From: Brachyspira sp. SAP_772
GTDB taxonomy: Bacteria > Spirochaetota > Brachyspiria > Brachyspirales > Brachyspiraceae
DNA: 64,000 nucleotides
NCBI RefSeq assembly: GCF_009755885.1
Contig: NZ_VYIX01000003.1
Coordinates: 68 to 64,067 of the forward strand
Direction of reading: 5' to 3'
Made by a program: the position numbers and the translations under genes. Of this stretch, positions 34,917-43,224 are shown in pieces. The notes under the pieces are model-generated. The model searched no databases. It was given only the letters and a program-made list of their open reading frames with translations, and was not told the DNA's origin. Within the stretch, counting starts at the first letter, position 1; each line of letters starts with the position of its first letter.

Positions 34917-36776
34917 ATGAAAAGAATACATAGTTTATCAGTAAAAGTACCAATTATGGTTAGTTCTATTATAGTAGTAACTGTATTGGTATTATCTATC
35001 ATACTTACAATTGCTGCTTCTAGAGGTATAAGAAATGCTACTTTAAATGGCTTTCAAACTACAGTACAAGGTTATGCTTCAACTATAGAATTAGTACTGC
35101 ATGAACAGCTTATGCTTATTCAAACATATTCAAAAAGTACTGCTTTTCAAAATTTTATCACTAATTATAATGATCCAGAAGCACAAAATAATTTGCAAAG
35201 AGTGTTAAAAAACTATAATGATATTAACTACTATTCAACAAATACAGGTATAGCTACTGTTGATGGTATTATATTAGCAGATAGTTCTGACCCTAAATTG
35301 CTAGGAGTTTCACTTGCTGAGATACATCCTGAACTTTATCAAGATATAGTAAAAAATAATTATGATTTTAAGTTTGATAATATAATAAAGAAATCATTAA
35401 CTACAGGCAGAAATTCTTTACTTCTAATGGGCGGTATAAAAGATGATGTTGGCAATGTACTTGGTATAGCATATATAAATTTAGATATAGATAAAGTAAA
35501 TAACTCTTTCATTAAATCTTTACCTCTTCAAGGAAGTGAAAGATTAACAGTAGCAAATCATGATAAAATGGTATTATTATCATCTGATGATGAGTTTGTT
35601 GGAGTTACTTTATCCCCTGTATACGATGTTATTAAAACACAAGATAAAGGTATTATAGCTTCTTATAAAAGTGTTAATACATCAACAGCAAGAACATCAG
35701 CATATAATGCTATAAATGGAGTTCCTTGGTCTGTAATACTTGCTAAAAATGATTCTGATATATATAGTCAAATTTATAGTATTATTGCACAATCTGTTAT
35801 TATAGGTGTAGCATTTATAATAATAGCTTCTGTTTTAGTGTTATTATATATTAGAAGTATTACTAATCCTTTACAAAAAATTATAAAAATATCTAAAGAA
35901 ATATCTAAAGGAGATTTAACTAATACAGACCAAACAATACATAGAAAAGATGAACTTGGAGAATTGGCAGATTCATTTTCTACAATGCGTCATGAACTTG
36001 TAAACATCATAGTAAGAGTAAGAGATTCAGTAGAAAAGATTACTAACAGTGCACAAGAGCTTTCACAGGGAAGTAATGATTTATCACATAGAACAGAATC
36101 TCAGGCAGCAAGCCTAGAAGAGACAGCAAGCTCTATGGAACAAATGGCTTCTACTATAAAATCTTCTACAGACCAATCAGTACAAGGTAATAGAATGATG
36201 GTTGAATCTAGACAGTCTATAGAAAGTGCCGGAGATATTATACTTGAAACTACAAAAAATATAGAAGAAGTTTATGATGCTAGTGCCAAAATTAAAGATA
36301 TTACTAATATAATAGAAAACATAGCATTCCAAACAAATATACTTGCTTTGAACGCTGCGGTAGAGGCTGCACGTGCTGGGGATCAGGGTAAAGGTTTTGC
36401 GGTTGTTGCTAGTGAGGTTAGAAACTTGGCTCAAACTACTCAATCTTCCGTAAAAGATATTACAAACTTGGTGGATAACGCTTATGATAAAATCAATAAA
36501 GCTACCGAATCTGCTAGAACTTCTCAAGAGATATTTAATGATCTTAGAGTAAAAATAGATGAAACAGCTAGAATAATGCAAGACATTAGCTCTACTGCTG
36601 TAGAACAACAAACTGGTGTTGATCAAGTTAATAGGGCTGTTGCTGATATGGATAGTGTTACTCAGCAAAATGCTGCTTTAGTAGAAGAGTCATATGCAGC
36701 TACTATGTCTTTATCTAATCAGGCACAAGAACTTTATGAGGCTATGAAATTCTTTAAAATAGATAAAGATGAATAA
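34917..36776 (+). CDS. Methyl-accepting chemotaxis protein (Cache domain)
   Basis: 619-residue chemoreceptor. TM1 at about 10-32, a periplasmic dCache-like sensor to about 288 ([20 protein letters not shown] and [10 protein letters not shown] are typical), TM2 at 290-312, a HAMP domain ([20 protein letters not shown]), and a long cytosolic signalling coiled coil with the conserved hairpin tip [20 protein letters not shown] and [14 protein letters not shown]. The sensor ligand cannot be read. A G-U paired stem follows 20 bases after the stop. Methylation sites are likely in the [20 protein letters not shown] run. No CheA/CheW is nearby. Confidence 0.95.
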
Positions 36777-36868: not shown

Positions 36869-38545
36869 ATGGAAGTTATTTATCTTTATGCTTTAATTAT
36901 TTTAGGTGTATTATTTGCCACATTGGTGCTTCTAAAAACATTAATACTTAATAAAGATAAAGTAAAAAAACCAAAAGCATTAAAAAAACGTATAGAAGAA
37001 TTAAATAAAAGAATTAAAAAAAATCAATATGACTATGATGCTATAAATCAGCTTGCTAATATAGAAGAAGAATTTGGAAGCAAAGAAAAAGCATTAGAAC
37101 TATATAAAATAGCATTAGATGGAAACTTCTTTTCAGATAAAGATAAAATAGAAATATATAAAAAATTAGAAAGTATTTGTGAAGAATTAGGCGATATACA
37201 ACAAGCGTTTAAATATACTTTAATTATAAACAAAGAAGAGCCTGAAAATAAATATTATTATATAAAAATAGCACACACTCTAGTAGAAGAAGGTTATTTT
37301 AAACTAGCATATGAATACTATCATAGAGCTTTAGTATTAAAATCAGAATTTTCTATAGATGATTTTAAATATGCTGCTTTTTCTGCTTTTCAGTTAAAAG
37401 ATTATAAAAGAACAATTATTTATTTAGAAAAATTGTATAAAAAAATGTGTAAAGACATAAATCAATATAAAACTGATATTGCTAAATTGATGCAGTCTTT
37501 GGTTTCTATATATATACTTTCTGATGAAATTAATATTGCTAAATCTTTTATAGAAGAAGCTTTTATATATAAAGCTATAGATAGTGATAATAGACTTTAT
37601 ATGAATAAAATTTATTTATTTATATTATATAAATTGGATGATAATAAAAAATTCAATGAAATATATAATAAATTAATAGACATGTATAAAATAAATAATG
37701 ATTCTATAGACCTTGCTGATTTAATATTTGATTATGGTTTTTATAGTTATTTCTTAAAAGATATAAAATCTTCTATTAGATATTTTAATATAATAAAATC
37801 TTTCAATATAGAATTGTATAGTGTTTTCAATATTAATGAAATATTAGAATATTTAAAAAATGTAGAAATAGCTAATTCTCAATTAACAAAACTATATGAA
37901 GAAAAAAAGATATATGATTCAAAATATAAAAATGATAATTTTGAAAACTATATTAAAAAAGAATATATAGATAATTGGGAAAGAGCTATTAATTTATGGG
38001 AAAGCTCATTTATACATTTAGACTATATATCTAATCTAGTAGAACTCAAAAAAACTATGAATATAGACGAAGTATTGAAAGAGTTTAAACTATATGATTT
38101 GCCAAATTATAATACACAAGACCATCAAAAAACTACTGTAGCTTCAAATAAAATTGAGAAAATATTTAGCTTAAGTTTTTCTGATTTCAAAAAGATTTGT
38201 CAAAATATAATATTATCAAAACTTTCATATACCATAGTGCAAGAATATATAGACAGTGCCGATAAAATAAAAGGAGATGAAATAGATTATTTAGCATACA
38301 ATAATAAAATGGCAAGAGTTGAACTTACTTTAATATCTTTCAAAAGATGGAATAAGGTAGATATAGGTGAATTAAGTATTAGAGATTTCTTTATGAAAGT
38401 ACAAGAATCTGGAGCTAAAAATGGAATATTAATTGTTACTGCTGAATTAACTAGAAGTGCTAGAAGTTATGTTTCTCATAATGAAAGTATTACTGTATAT
38501 TCTAAAAATCAATTTAACAATTTACTTAAAGGAGAAATATTCTAA
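36869..38545 (+). CDS. Membrane-anchored TPR protein with C-terminal Mrr-nuclease-like domain (copy 1)
   Basis: 558 residues: one N-terminal membrane helix (about 4-24), TPR repeats over about 45-330 (for example KEKALELYKIALDGNFFSDK, and FKLAYEYYHRALVLKSEF), and a C-terminal domain from about 427. That domain follows the Mrr restriction-endonuclease pattern: DEIDYLAY (Asp 473), TLISFKRWNKVDIGELSIRD (Lys 492), SGAKNGILIVTAELTRSARS and SKNQFNNLLKG. In Mrr the second site reads QxKRW; here Gln is Ser, so catalysis is uncertain. The next gene is a paralogue. Such an anchored TPR-nuclease fusion is unfamiliar to me; cytosolic orientation is assumed. Confidence 0.75.
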   Translation: MEVIYLYALIILGVLFATLVLLKTLILNKDKVKKPKALKKRIEELNKRIKKNQYDYDAINQLANIEEEFGSKEKALELYKIALDGNFFSDKDKIEIYKKLESICEELGDIQQAFKYTLIINKEEPENKYYYIKIAHTLVEEGYFKLAYEYYHRALVLKSEFSIDDFKYAAFSAFQLKDYKRTIIYLEKLYKKMCKDINQYKTDIAKLMQSLVSIYILSDEINIAKSFIEEAFIYKAIDSDNRLYMNKIYLFILYKLDDNKKFNEIYNKLIDMYKINNDSIDLADLIFDYGFYSYFLKDIKSSIRYFNIIKSFNIELYSVFNINEILEYLKNVEIANSQLTKLYEEKKIYDSKYKNDNFENYIKKEYIDNWERAINLWESSFIHLDYISNLVELKKTMNIDEVLKEFKLYDLPNYNTQDHQKTTVASNKIEKIFSLSFSDFKKICQNIILSKLSYTIVQEYIDSADKIKGDEIDYLAYNNKMARVELTLISFKRWNKVDIGELSIRDFFMKVQESGAKNGILIVTAELTRSARSYVSHNESITVYSKNQFNNLLKGEIF

Positions 38546-38577
38546 AAAATAATTATATATACTTTTAGAGTCTGTTT

Positions 38578-40251
38578 ATGGAAAATATTTACATTTATGT
38601 CTTTATATTTCTACTGCTATTATTATTTATTATAGCCTTATATTTATTTATAAGTAATAATATTTATAAAAGAAATAGTGCATCTGATAGAAATATTATT
38701 GCTGAATTAAATAAAAAACTATTAAAAAATCCAAATGATTATAATACTATTTATAAGTTGGCATTAATTAAAGATGAGAATGGAGATATTCTTGATGCTC
38801 TAAAAAAATATGAGTTTCTTATATCTGTTAATTATTTTAATGATAATGAAAAAATTAAAATATATAAGAGAATAGAAAGCATATGCACCGAATTAGATTA
38901 TAAAGATGAAGCTTTTAAATATTCTGTGATTATCACAAATCTAGAGCCAACTAATATACATTATTTAGTAAAAGTGGCTTATACGTTATTTAATGAAAAA
39001 AAATATCAATTAGCATGTAATTATTTTAATAAAGCCATTATGTCTAGGAAGGAGTTTAATATAGATGAACTTAAAGCTGCAATATATTCTTATTATGATA
39101 TAAAAAATTATGATAAAGCTATTGCTTTCTTAGAAGATTTGGATAAAAGAATAAAAAAAGATTCTGTAAATTTTCAAAATGAATTAATAGAAATTAGAAA
39201 GACTTTAATATCTATATATTTATTTACTGATAAACTTCAATATGCTATAGAATATATAGAAGGACTTTTAAATGAATCTAATAATGTAGATAGAAATTTA
39301 TTAATTTATTATAATAGAATGTATTTATTTGTATTACATAAATTTGGAGACAAAAAGAAGTTTAAAGATGTATATAAGAAAATAAAGACAACATTAAAAA
39401 CAGATGAATTAGAATCTACAAATGAAGAATTAATTTTTGATTATGGATTTTACTCATATTTTTTAGGATATATAGAAGATGCTATAAAATATTTTGAGAC
39501 AATTAATAAATTTAGTTCCAACATATTAAAAACATATAAAATAAGCGAAGTTTTAATATATTTATATCAAGTTTACAGAGCTAATTTGCAAGTTAATAGA
39601 GGAAACCGCAAATTAGATAATATTTATGAACATCAATATTATGAAGATTATGTACAAAAAGAAAATCTCAATGAATGGGAAGACACTGTAGAGATTTGGG
39701 AGAATAGTTTTACTAATTTTGAATATATTAATACTTTAGCTCCAACAAATAATGAAAACTCAATAGATGTAGATAATATATTATTAAATCTAAAAGTTAC
39801 TCATAATATTAAATTTGACAATAAAACAAGAACAACATCTAGTAATTCAAACAATAATATTGTAGATAAAATATATAATTTAAGTTTTAATGATTTTAAA
39901 AAGTTATGCAGAAATATAATAACCAATAAACTTTCTTATACTATAGTACAAGAGTTTATAGATAATCCAGATGACAATATAGATGAAATTGATTATCTTG
40001 CATATGATAATGAAACTGGAAAATATAATTTAACATTTATTTCTATTAAACGATGGCAAAATACTAATATAGGAGAATTAATATTAAGGGATTTTATTGT
40101 AAAAGTAAAAGATTCTGGTGCTAAAAGAGGGGTATTAATAGTACCTGTAGAATTAACAAAAAGTGCCAAAAGTTATGCTGTACATAGTGAAATTGTTACA
40201 ATATATTCTAGAAGCCAATTAAACAATTTACTAAAGGGAACAGTATTTTGA
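38578..40251 (+). CDS. Membrane-anchored TPR protein with C-terminal Mrr-nuclease-like domain (copy 2)
   Basis: 557 residues, paralogous over its full length to the gene 32 bases upstream: N-terminal membrane helix (YIYVFIFLLLLLFIIALYLF), TPR region (for example LACNYFNKAIMSRKEF, IEDAIKYFETINKF), and C-terminal Mrr-like domain with DEIDYLAY (Asp 472), LTFISIKRWQNTNIGELILRD (Lys 491) and VLIVPVELTKSAKSYAVH. The Ser-x-Lys in place of Gln-x-Lys is shared, so it predates the duplication or is selected. Both copies end LNNLLKG plus two or three residues. They are likely cotranscribed. TPR segments diverge more than the C-terminal domain. Confidence 0.75.
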   Translation: MENIYIYVFIFLLLLLFIIALYLFISNNIYKRNSASDRNIIAELNKKLLKNPNDYNTIYKLALIKDENGDILDALKKYEFLISVNYFNDNEKIKIYKRIESICTELDYKDEAFKYSVIITNLEPTNIHYLVKVAYTLFNEKKYQLACNYFNKAIMSRKEFNIDELKAAIYSYYDIKNYDKAIAFLEDLDKRIKKDSVNFQNELIEIRKTLISIYLFTDKLQYAIEYIEGLLNESNNVDRNLLIYYNRMYLFVLHKFGDKKKFKDVYKKIKTTLKTDELESTNEELIFDYGFYSYFLGYIEDAIKYFETINKFSSNILKTYKISEVLIYLYQVYRANLQVNRGNRKLDNIYEHQYYEDYVQKENLNEWEDTVEIWENSFTNFEYINTLAPTNNENSIDVDNILLNLKVTHNIKFDNKTRTTSSNSNNNIVDKIYNLSFNDFKKLCRNIITNKLSYTIVQEFIDNPDDNIDEIDYLAYDNETGKYNLTFISIKRWQNTNIGELILRDFIVKVKDSGAKRGVLIVPVELTKSAKSYAVHSEIVTIYSRSQLNNLLKGTVF

Positions 40252-40520: not shown

Positions 40521-42146
40521 TTAATATAGTTTTAATTCACTATGTAAAGCTTTATAAAAATTGTCATTTTCTCCCAATTTTTCTTTTATAATATTATTTA
40601 GAATATAATTGAAATTTATAGAATTGATTATATGGTCAGTTTTTATATTTTTATAAAAGTTATAAAATATATAAAAAATTATATCCTTTATTATTATTTT
40701 ATAATCTTTATTGTCTTTGAATTTATTTAGAACAATTATTAGAGCATTCATTTCACGAAATTCTATAACTAATTTTTGTGGCACATAGAAATCCGCTAAA
40801 TTCGATCCTTTATCAATATAAGAATTCAAATTATTAATTTTATCAAAAATAGCTTCATTTACTTTTTCTGATTCATTATTTATGTTTACTTCTTTTAGAT
40901 AGCTATCTAATGCTATTAGATATGATATATAGTAATAAGGTCTATTAATACAAATTTCAATTAAATCATTTATTTCTGTTATATCCAATTTTCCAGCAAT
41001 ATAACAGCTTATGAAAAATAAATTACAATTTTTATAACTTATATTATTATCATTACTTATACCGTTTTTATTAAGTTCGTATAATATCTTTTTAACATTA
41101 GTTGCATATTTAAATAATGCTATAATCATTAATAAATTTAAATTATCAATGTAAAAATATGCATCTTTATATAATATAATGTTATTTAAATACAAATCAA
41201 TATATCCATCATCTATTAAAAAATGATAGTCTTTTAATGTATTATCAAAAATATCAAAATTGGTTAATTTAGAAAAATAATCATAATCAAATTTTTTTAT
41301 ATATATTTTATCAATAAAAGATATATATTCAAAAATTACTTTTTTATTATCTAAATTCTTATACTGATCTTTATATACATGTTCAATGCAATATTTTAAT
41401 AACTCTCTTAATTTATTAAGATATTTATTTTTATTATTAGAAAAAACAAAAAATTTAAATATATTTACTATAAAAGTATAATTAGTATTAATATTATTTA
41501 TTTTTATTGCTTTATCAAGTACTATATCTGTTATTATAGAGTTATTTTCTAGAAAAATTATATTATATTTTTCTAAAGAATTATATATATCTATTATATA
41601 ACTTGTAATATCATAGATATTATCGTTAGTTTGTAATACCTCTTTAATAGCTTCACTTAAATTTTCTTTTAATTTATCATTATCAAAAATTGAGAAATAA
41701 TCTGAAATATTTTTTATATTTTCACTATTATTGAATGTATTAAAATTATCAATTAATTCAATAAAAGCATCCTTATCAGGAATTTGCATTTTATAATATA
41801 TAATATTAATATATTCTATCAATTTATCTAAATCAATTTTATTTTTATCAAGAATTTTATTATATATAGTACCTAATTTATTTTTTATATGGTTATTTTT
41901 TTCATTACCATTATTTTTGTATATTTTTATTAATTCTAATAACTTTTTTTCATTATTAAATATTTGTGCTGATGATACAAATAAAGATGCCATAAAAAAT
42001 ATTTCTTCATTATAAGCCTCATTTTTTAAATATTTGTTATCGCTTTTATTTTTCGTATTTTGTAATAAATCAATATTTGAATAATAATTTATCTTTATTT
42101 GATTTATTAACTTTTTTATCTCTCTAGGTGTATAATCCATATTCAT
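40521..42146 (-). CDS. C-terminal part of a KAP-type NTPase, or a separate helical protein
   Basis: 541 residues. The first 20 read DYTPREIKKLINQIKINYYS, which resembles the sensor-2 'xPRxIKRLIN' element near the end of KAP P-loop NTPase domains. The rest is Asn/Ile/Lys-rich, largely helical and unrecognised. Its ATG (42146) comes one base after the upstream gene's TAA and in the +1 frame; an AAGG sequence lies close by. It therefore may be a translationally coupled second gene or the back half of a frameshifted KAP protein. Confidence 0.6.
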   Translation of the reverse strand: MNMDYTPREIKKLINQIKINYYSNIDLLQNTKNKSDNKYLKNEAYNEEIFFMASLFVSSAQIFNNEKKLLELIKIYKNNGNEKNNHIKNKLGTIYNKILDKNKIDLDKLIEYINIIYYKMQIPDKDAFIELIDNFNTFNNSENIKNISDYFSIFDNDKLKENLSEAIKEVLQTNDNIYDITSYIIDIYNSLEKYNIIFLENNSIITDIVLDKAIKINNINTNYTFIVNIFKFFVFSNNKNKYLNKLRELLKYCIEHVYKDQYKNLDNKKVIFEYISFIDKIYIKKFDYDYFSKLTNFDIFDNTLKDYHFLIDDGYIDLYLNNIILYKDAYFYIDNLNLLMIIALFKYATNVKKILYELNKNGISNDNNISYKNCNLFFISCYIAGKLDITEINDLIEICINRPYYYISYLIALDSYLKEVNINNESEKVNEAIFDKINNLNSYIDKGSNLADFYVPQKLVIEFREMNALIIVLNKFKDNKDYKIIIKDIIFYIFYNFYKNIKTDHIINSINFNYILNNIIKEKLGENDNFYKALHSELKLY

Positions 42147-42147
42147 T

Positions 42148-43224
42148 TTACCTTATATCAGTATTATCTTCTTTAAAAAAGTCTAACAATAAATATATTT
42201 GATCCAAGTTTTTAATTTCTTTAATAATGTTATTATCAAAATTATTAAACAGTTCTTTTTTAAAGTAGGTGCCAACTAAAAAATTATTCATCTCTGGTAT
42301 ACTTACTTCATAAGGACTTAATTTATCATAAAATGAATTATCTACACTACTATTATTTTTACCTATATTTTTTTTATCAACAGCCAATATAAACCAAATA
42401 TTAATATTATCATCTTTTTTCTGCATGCATTCTATAAAAGTATATAATGATGAAATAAATTTTTCTTCTTCATCTTTTGAAAGCCTATCCATATTGTCTA
42501 CTACAATAACAACATCTTTATCAAAGAAGTCAGAATATAGACTATAAAATTTTTTTACAAATTGTTTAAATTGATAAGGAGTTAAATCTTTCCCTTCTTC
42601 ATATTCTGAATAACTATCTGAGGAACCATATAAAAAAGGAAATAATATTTTAACAATATAATTTTTAAACATAAATGATATTAGTAATATAATAAGAAAT
42701 AATATATAGTAATGTTGACTATTAAAATTTATATTATTAAGTGGGCTATTTTTTATATAAGTTAATATAGGAATTCCTATAAATACGAAACAATATATTA
42801 ATATTGTAATAAAATTAATATTTGATTTTACGTTTTTTTCAATAGTATCTATATCCTTTAATAATTTATCAAGAGGATTTTTTAAATGATCAGCATACTT
42901 CCCTTTTTTTATTTTACCTCTTTGATCTAATACATTTCTAAATAGACATCTTAAAAACTCTTTCTTTAAAACATTTTCAGGAGCATTCCATGCATCTATT
43001 GTTATAAATATTTTATCTTTTTCATTTTCTCTAATAAGTTTTTGTATTATTGTAGTTTTACCTGACCCTCTCACTCCACTTAATAATATTACTTTTCTTA
43101 ATACATTTTTATTATTATCAATTATATTTAAAATACTATTACATGTTTGTTTATGAGGTAATGAATTATCTGGGTTTTCAGCTGGGGATTCATCTAATAA
43201 TTTTATAGCATTTTTATCAGGCAT
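42148..43224 (-). CDS. KAP family P-loop NTPase (N-terminal part)
   Basis: 358 residues. Walker A is LLSGVRGSGKTT at about 48-58; Walker B is VVIVVDNMDRLS with the following KFISSLYTFIEC and INIWFILAVDKKNI. Two membrane helices (about 130-190, including FITILIYCFVFIGIPILTY) sit between the Walker motifs, a hallmark of KAP NTPases. These are membrane-attached ATPases, several of them linked to anti-phage or anti-plasmid systems. The frame ends DNTDIR before the family's expected 'PRxIKRLIN' helix, which is found at the start of the next frame. The KAP domain is thus broken at this point. Confidence 0.8.
   Translation of the reverse strand: MPDKNAIKLLDESPAENPDNSLPHKQTCNSILNIIDNNKNVLRKVILLSGVRGSGKTTIIQKLIRENEKDKIFITIDAWNAPENVLKKEFLRCLFRNVLDQRGKIKKGKYADHLKNPLDKLLKDIDTIEKNVKSNINFITILIYCFVFIGIPILTYIKNSPLNNINFNSQHYYILFLIILLISFMFKNYIVKILFPFLYGSSDSYSEYEEGKDLTPYQFKQFVKKFYSLYSDFFDKDVVIVVDNMDRLSKDEEEKFISSLYTFIECMQKKDDNINIWFILAVDKKNIGKNNSSVDNSFYDKLSPYEVSIPEMNNFLVGTYFKKELFNNFDNNIIKEIKNLDQIYLLLDFFKEDNTDIR

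Follow-up and report, generated by a model that had tools for sequence, protein, structure and literature searches.

We analyzed a 64,000-nucleotide stretch of the genome of Brachyspira sp. SAP_772 (contig NZ_VYIX01000003.1, positions 68 to 64,067 of the forward strand; hereafter the window), which carries two tandem genes, copy 1 and copy 2, each encoding a protein with one N-terminal membrane helix, a tetratricopeptide-repeat (TPR) array and a C-terminal domain that is homologous to the Mrr_cat domain of restriction endonucleases and has the same fold. The two genes belong to a vertically inherited core protein family of spirochaetes, and the window pair consists of lineage-specific duplicates. 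We propose, with a probability of about 0.5, that the protein is an inner-membrane TPR scaffold with a pseudonuclease module that takes part in assembling the periplasmic flagellum or the envelope. The suggestion of a flagellar or envelope role is made because the family gene is linked to a gene of the bb0259 type, encoding a flagellar lytic transglycosylase, and is lost together with flagella.

Fold, domain architecture and topology

The domain order that a first-pass annotation had read from the sequence was borne out for both genes by Pfam, AlphaFold and structure matches. Pfam Mrr_cat matched residues 435–553 of copy 1 (E 8e-10, 39.2 bits) and residues 434–552 of copy 2 (E 3e-9, 37.6 bits), above the gathering cut-off of 21 bits in each case, with weak matches to Pfam TPR models ahead of it. 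The AlphaFold model of copy 1, built on an 84-sequence alignment, reached a predicted local distance difference test (pLDDT) score of 88 and comprises a helix (residues 2–27), a helical-repeat solenoid (36–344) and an alpha/beta domain (428–552). In Foldseek/VIA-align comparisons, residues 32–376 superpose on TPR solenoids of solved structure (Z up to 16.6), and strong Pfam TPR matches were found in treponeme, presumed T. pallidum and Borreliaceae-type members.

Because TPR proteins filled the Foldseek results for the whole protein, the C-terminal domain was folded separately, giving a pLDDT of 90 and a predicted template-modelling score (pTM) of 0.86. Its topology, alpha-beta-beta-beta-alpha-beta-alpha-beta, includes the alpha-beta-beta-beta-alpha-beta core of the PD-(D/E)XK superfamily, and VIA-align superposed it on AspBHI (Z 11.2, 128 residues, 2.8 Å), AF1548 (Z 10.6) and MspJI (Z 10.3). 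Of the site residues, Asp473 falls on core strand 2 and Ser490-Phe-Lys492 on core strand 3, the positions of D and (D/E/Q)xK in such enzymes. No Pfam match to the Mrr_N winged helix was obtained in the window copies or in the other members scanned. The C-terminal domain is basic, with a median isoelectric point (pI) of 8.9, while the TPR part has a median pI of 6.3.

In 79 of 84 homologues the residues that follow the membrane helix carry more positive charge than those ahead of it, and the TPR and pseudonuclease parts are therefore predicted, by the positive-inside comparison, to face the cytoplasm, as is probably the case. The protein would thus sit on the inner face of the inner membrane, opposite the periplasmic transglycosylase.

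A core protein family of spirochaetes

All 26 Brachyspira genomes searched carry the gene, in one to five copies and often two or three in tandem. At a threshold of E 1e-6, the profile of the C-terminal domain matched 332 of 393 Spirochaetota genomes (278 of the 328 good ones), the matched frames being mostly ~445–590 residues long; the weakest of these matches may include ordinary Mrr proteins. When 84,980 species were scanned with two sequence patterns only, all of the 74 loci listed were spirochaetal. The order of helix, TPR array and Mrr-like domain is kept in the members inspected by eye or with Pfam, including those of a 906-kb Borreliaceae-type chromosome and of the presumed T. pallidum genome; in the Borreliaceae-type member Pfam did not report Mrr_cat, and the domain was detected by the family profile only. 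The presumed T. pallidum genome (G078) has a second, more divergent protein with a membrane helix, TPRs and an Mrr-like domain, adjoining uvrC (L236:6838-8247), which we take to be probably TP0468. A second weak match of this kind occurs in many spirochaete genomes.

A search of NCBIfam gave no model for the protein, only TPR look-alikes that scored below cut-off, and the literature searched contained no functional study of the family and no papers for BB0260, BB0261 or TP0916, with a single genome paper for TP0915. The first-pass annotation had allowed that such genes might turn out to be widespread with a known non-nuclease role: widespread they are, and no known role was found. Its suggestion of a special system of two adjacent proteins was rejected, given that copy number varies from 1 to 5 in Brachyspira, that many genomes have a single gene and that the family spans the phylum.

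Linkage to a flagellar lytic transglycosylase and loss with flagella

Outside Brachyspira a recurrent gene order was found. The neighbour divergent from the family gene encodes a membrane protein whose N-terminal part is Hsp70-like and which in treponemes also carries a LysM domain; after it come the gene for an SLT lytic transglycosylase and sometimes ftsK, and in the Borreliaceae-type genome a gene for an M23/LysM peptidase. In that genome the transglycosylase scores 757 bits against NCBIfam NF047373 (‘flagellar assembly lytic transglycosylase’, BB0259). Among 70 chosen genomes, 53 have both the family gene and an NF047373 gene above cut-off, 36 of them on one contig; 29 of these 36 pairs are less than 7 kb apart, all 29 are divergent, and they come from 12 families. 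In a genome of 3 Mb, two genes would be expected to lie this close by chance in well under 1% of cases. Deletion of bb0259 in B. burgdorferi gives non-motile, rod-shaped cells in which hooks fail to cross the wall (PMC8517470).

Presence of the family also follows that of flagella. Across the 393 Spirochaetota genomes, FlhA and the family occur together in 325 and are both missing from 39, with FlhA alone in 22 and the family alone in 7. Six of the last seven are metagenome-assembled genomes less than 90% complete, and the seventh, the near-complete G341, has FliG; allowing for an assembly gap there, all 38 near-complete non-flagellated genomes (38/38) thus lack the family.

Taken together with the domain architecture, these data are consistent with the following mechanism. 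The single N-terminal helix would hold the protein in the inner membrane, with the TPR scaffold in the cytoplasm, and the Mrr-type PD-(D/E)XK domain, its nuclease site lost, would serve to bind nucleic acid or protein. Most probably the protein acts at the inner membrane to scaffold or recruit other components while periplasmic flagella are assembled and the cell wall is opened for them, working alongside the flagellar lytic transglycosylase of the bb0259 type.

Several observations weigh against this proposal. Nearly all non-flagellated genomes checked belong to one family, f49 (probably Sphaerochaetaceae), so that there are few independent losses and a Fisher test overstates their independence. 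About ten near-complete FlhA-positive genomes have no member at threshold (f35, f44 genus g84, G035, G114, G134, G144 and G277), implying either that flagella do not strictly require the gene or that it has diverged past detection in these genomes. Linkage to a bb0259-type gene is absent from Brachyspira, from the presumed T. pallidum genome and from several other treponemes; because their own neighbourhood has no such gene, the role suggested for the Brachyspira copies is carried over from their homologues. The topology is predicted from the positive-inside rule only, and the proposal does not account for the tandem expansion in Brachyspira.

Two other explanations draw on the same neighbourhoods. 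The protein could be a chromosome tether, in which the basic pseudonuclease binds DNA while the TPR and membrane part holds it at a division or pole site and aids segregation, with no direct part in flagella. The basic PD-(D/E)XK domain would fit such a function, as would ftsK (cluster 3), which adjoins the transglycosylase gene in 8 loci, and the ZapA-like gene that, with a coiled-coil gene, converges on the TPR-Mrr tandem in 13 Brachyspira genomes as annotated by eye (L040, L042, L044, L047, L051 and others). We nevertheless consider the tether unlikely, since linkage to the flagellar transglycosylase gene is the stronger and more widespread signal and since non-flagellated spirochaetes segregate their chromosomes yet do not have the gene. 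Still less likely is a general factor for the peptidoglycan wall and cell shape, tied to flagella only through the coupling of flagella and wall in spirochaetes, although the divergent Hsp70-like/LysM membrane protein, the SLT transglycosylase and the Borreliaceae-type peptidase all point towards the wall and penicillin-binding transpeptidases are also few or missing in the f49 genomes (0–1 each). Here one genome of family f50 (G362) is informative: it retains three penicillin-binding transpeptidases and a bb0259-like SLT gene, yet has neither FlhA nor FliG nor the family gene. Moreover, the predicted topology places the functional part in the cytoplasm.

Loss of the catalytic set

The assignment of the C-terminal domain as a pseudonuclease, and with it the scaffold proposal, draws on the alignment of the site residues, in which no sequence has a complete D...Q-x-K set. 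The replacement of Gln by Ser, which the first-pass annotation had noticed in the two window copies, extends to all 68 Brachyspira copies (S490). D473 is replaced by Asn in 55 of these 68 and K492 by Arg in three, each a copy 1 protein from a sister genome; D and K are both present in copies 1 and 2 of the SAP_772 species. The 42 treponeme-type homologues retain Asp, have Arg for Gln throughout, and carry Ile, Val or other residues in place of Lys. What has been lost from the site thus differs between Brachyspira and the treponemes. As a control, the ordinary Mrr of the window genome (G000, 3.04 Mb; L001, G000:C2:695804) carries GID...QCK and does match Mrr_N. From these sequences, the C-terminal domain likely binds nucleic acid or protein and does not cut, and the earlier guess of a membrane-located protein with a degenerate nuclease as binder appears right, with binding and a cytoplasmic position as predicted properties. 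Tentatively, we further suggest that the protein is a spirochaete-specific core factor of flagella or envelope, in which a domain taken over from a restriction enzyme lost its activity and became anchored at the inner membrane, the nuclease fold now serving periplasmic-flagellum assembly as a structural or DNA-sensing part.

Ten residues are invariant over the 84 sequences (F440, R493, G500, E501, L502, R505, D506, F507, G519 and A531). Three of them, E501, R505 and D506, are at the start of the helix that follows strand 3 and could, with D473 where it is kept, act on nucleic acid as a relocated active site, which would account for their constancy while the classical residues vary. However, a surface with a structural or binding role would be just as likely to show invariant R-D/E pairs, and D473 is Asn in most Brachyspira copies, making relocation quite improbable.

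The tandem locus in Brachyspira

The features of the locus are summarized in Table 1. The spacing between copy 1 and copy 2 in the open reading frame (ORF) list is 32 bp, and the two proteins are 41% identical. Orthologues of copy 1 in the B. pilosicoli clade are 89–93% identical to it, and the window genome has a third paralogue elsewhere (C3:253368-255035). In the tree each of the three paralogues of the clade (copies 1 and 2 and the third) forms an orthologue group of its own, indicating that the duplications are older than these species. Copy 2 has decayed into a pseudogene with numerous stops in one B. pilosicoli genome (G012, L055 10226-11593), in which copy 1 is intact; other paralogues are apparently broken in G002, G015 and G016. 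In G005 (L042 9625-13428) the open frame that contains a Brachyspira member runs to 1267 aa, its TPR-Mrr part being preceded by a long extension at the N-terminus. A search of the tandem locus against Rfam gave no match, and a scan of the locus for promoters and terminators gave signals no more than in shuffled sequence.

Table 1. Coordinates in the window of the two family genes, their parts and the upstream gene
Feature	Position	Strand	Details
Copy 1: membrane-anchored TPR protein with Mrr-like pseudonuclease domain	36869..38545	+	558 aa; ORF, Pfam, AlphaFold model
Copy 1, N-terminal membrane helix (residues 2-27)	36872..36949	+	AlphaFold model
Copy 1, TPR solenoid (residues 36-344)	36974..37900	+	Model; matches to solved TPR solenoids
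Copy 1, PD-(D/E)XK / Mrr-like domain (residues 428-556)	38150..38536	+	Mrr_cat, domain model, structure matches
Copy 1, site residues	D473 38285-38287; S490 38336-38338; K492 38342-38344	+	
Copy 2: paralogue of copy 1	38578..40251	+	557 aa; ORF, Pfam, tree
Copy 2, N-terminal membrane helix (about residues 8-26)	38599..38655	+	Hydropathy window
Copy 2, Mrr-like domain (residues 434-552)	39877..40233	+	Mrr_cat 38 bits
Copy 2, site residues	D472 39991-39993; S489 40042-40044; K491 40048-40050	+	
Methyl-accepting chemotaxis protein upstream of copy 1	34917..36776	+	

In 13 of 26 Brachyspira genomes, members of the group of methyl-accepting chemotaxis proteins to which the upstream gene belongs are encoded near family genes, in some cases with hisC in between. 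Downstream, on the minus strand (40521-43224), are two adjacent ORFs of 541 and 358 aa, the second of which encodes a KAP NTPase with membrane helices. Both ORFs were seen at this spot in the SAP_772 species only, BLAST with either giving no match in the loci of relatives, and sister species have an adenine deaminase gene there, with DUF262-like genes in some, adjoining gatB. An McrBC pair was likewise not seen in the neighbourhoods of the relatives' family genes. The KAP spot is a variable insertion site and the adjacency to KAP and McrBC is accidental: the first-pass annotation described the window correctly in placing the genes beside a split KAP gene and close to McrBC, but neither is conserved in relatives, and a functional link to them was rejected. 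A separate locus of the window genome (L004 460-2532, G000:C1) has a gene resembling RES-domain toxins, and the protein encoded after it combines an Mrr-like nuclease domain, in which ECK is intact, with a HEIGH metalloprotease motif, an unusual fusion that is possibly part of a toxin–antitoxin or defence system.

A restriction or defence role for the family is unlikely, and the defence or DNA-uptake function raised at first pass found no support. An active, membrane-bound protein of type IV-like restriction or other defence, for which the Mrr_cat match, a weak PADLOC match to mREase_IV and the D and K kept in both copies of the SAP_772 species might speak, is hardly credible for a core vertical gene that is present in every Brachyspira genome searched, gave no match in phage, plasmid and IMG/VR searches, always has Ser in place of Gln in that genus and Arg for Lys in copy 1 of three sister genomes, has no Mrr_N domain and has no conserved KAP or McrBC neighbour, KAP being absent from sister species.

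Significance and comparison with known systems

Spirochaetes, including those of Lyme disease, syphilis, leptospirosis and swine dysentery, share internal flagella, and parts of their assembly are still missing. The family provides a direct candidate: it is conserved, is absent where there are no flagella, has no family model and, in many lineages, lies beside the gene of a wall enzyme whose role in flagella is proven. It also presents a restriction-enzyme domain that has apparently been made into a non-cutting module across a whole phylum, which calls for caution over the label ‘restriction endonuclease’ given to such proteins. TP0915 and TP0468 appear to be the two T. pallidum members, the names following from gene order and PMC4403809; TP0915 is called ‘restriction endonuclease, type II’ there by in-silico annotation only. 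The member taken as TP0915 has lost both the Lys and the Gln of the site.

With the type IV restriction enzyme Mrr, the family shares the Mrr_cat-homologous domain and its fold, but differs in the absence of Mrr_N, the presence of a membrane helix and TPRs, the incomplete D...QxK set and a GELxxRDF motif of its own. The fold is also common, over 112–128 residues at Z 10–11, to the solved PD-(D/E)XK protein AF1548 and the catalytic domains of AspBHI and MspJI, the latter two being complete modification-dependent restriction enzymes with no TPR or membrane part. The jaw domain of Rpb5 in eukaryotic RNA polymerases (Z ~8, with a weak sequence match of E 0.006 to the copy 1 domain) is non-catalytic and offers a precedent for binding without cutting, in an unrelated context and with a similarity near the level expected of a common arrangement. 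NA-iREase1 (PF22722, the NACHT-associated inactive REase) is likewise an inactive module of the restriction-endonuclease fold in a larger protein, but its matches are sub-threshold and the family has no NACHT domain.

Among flagellar proteins, FlcA and the TPR collar proteins of periplasmic flagella are, like the family, spirochaete TPR proteins, and weak matches to NF047371 occur at the TPR level. Identity with FlcA was rejected, as the members tested score 25–46 bits against a cut-off of 300, no NF047371 match was listed for the window copies, and FlcA does not have an Mrr domain. BB0259 (NF047373; PMC8517470), whose gene is the divergent neighbour in 29 genomes, is a different protein, a periplasmic enzyme whose role in flagella is known.

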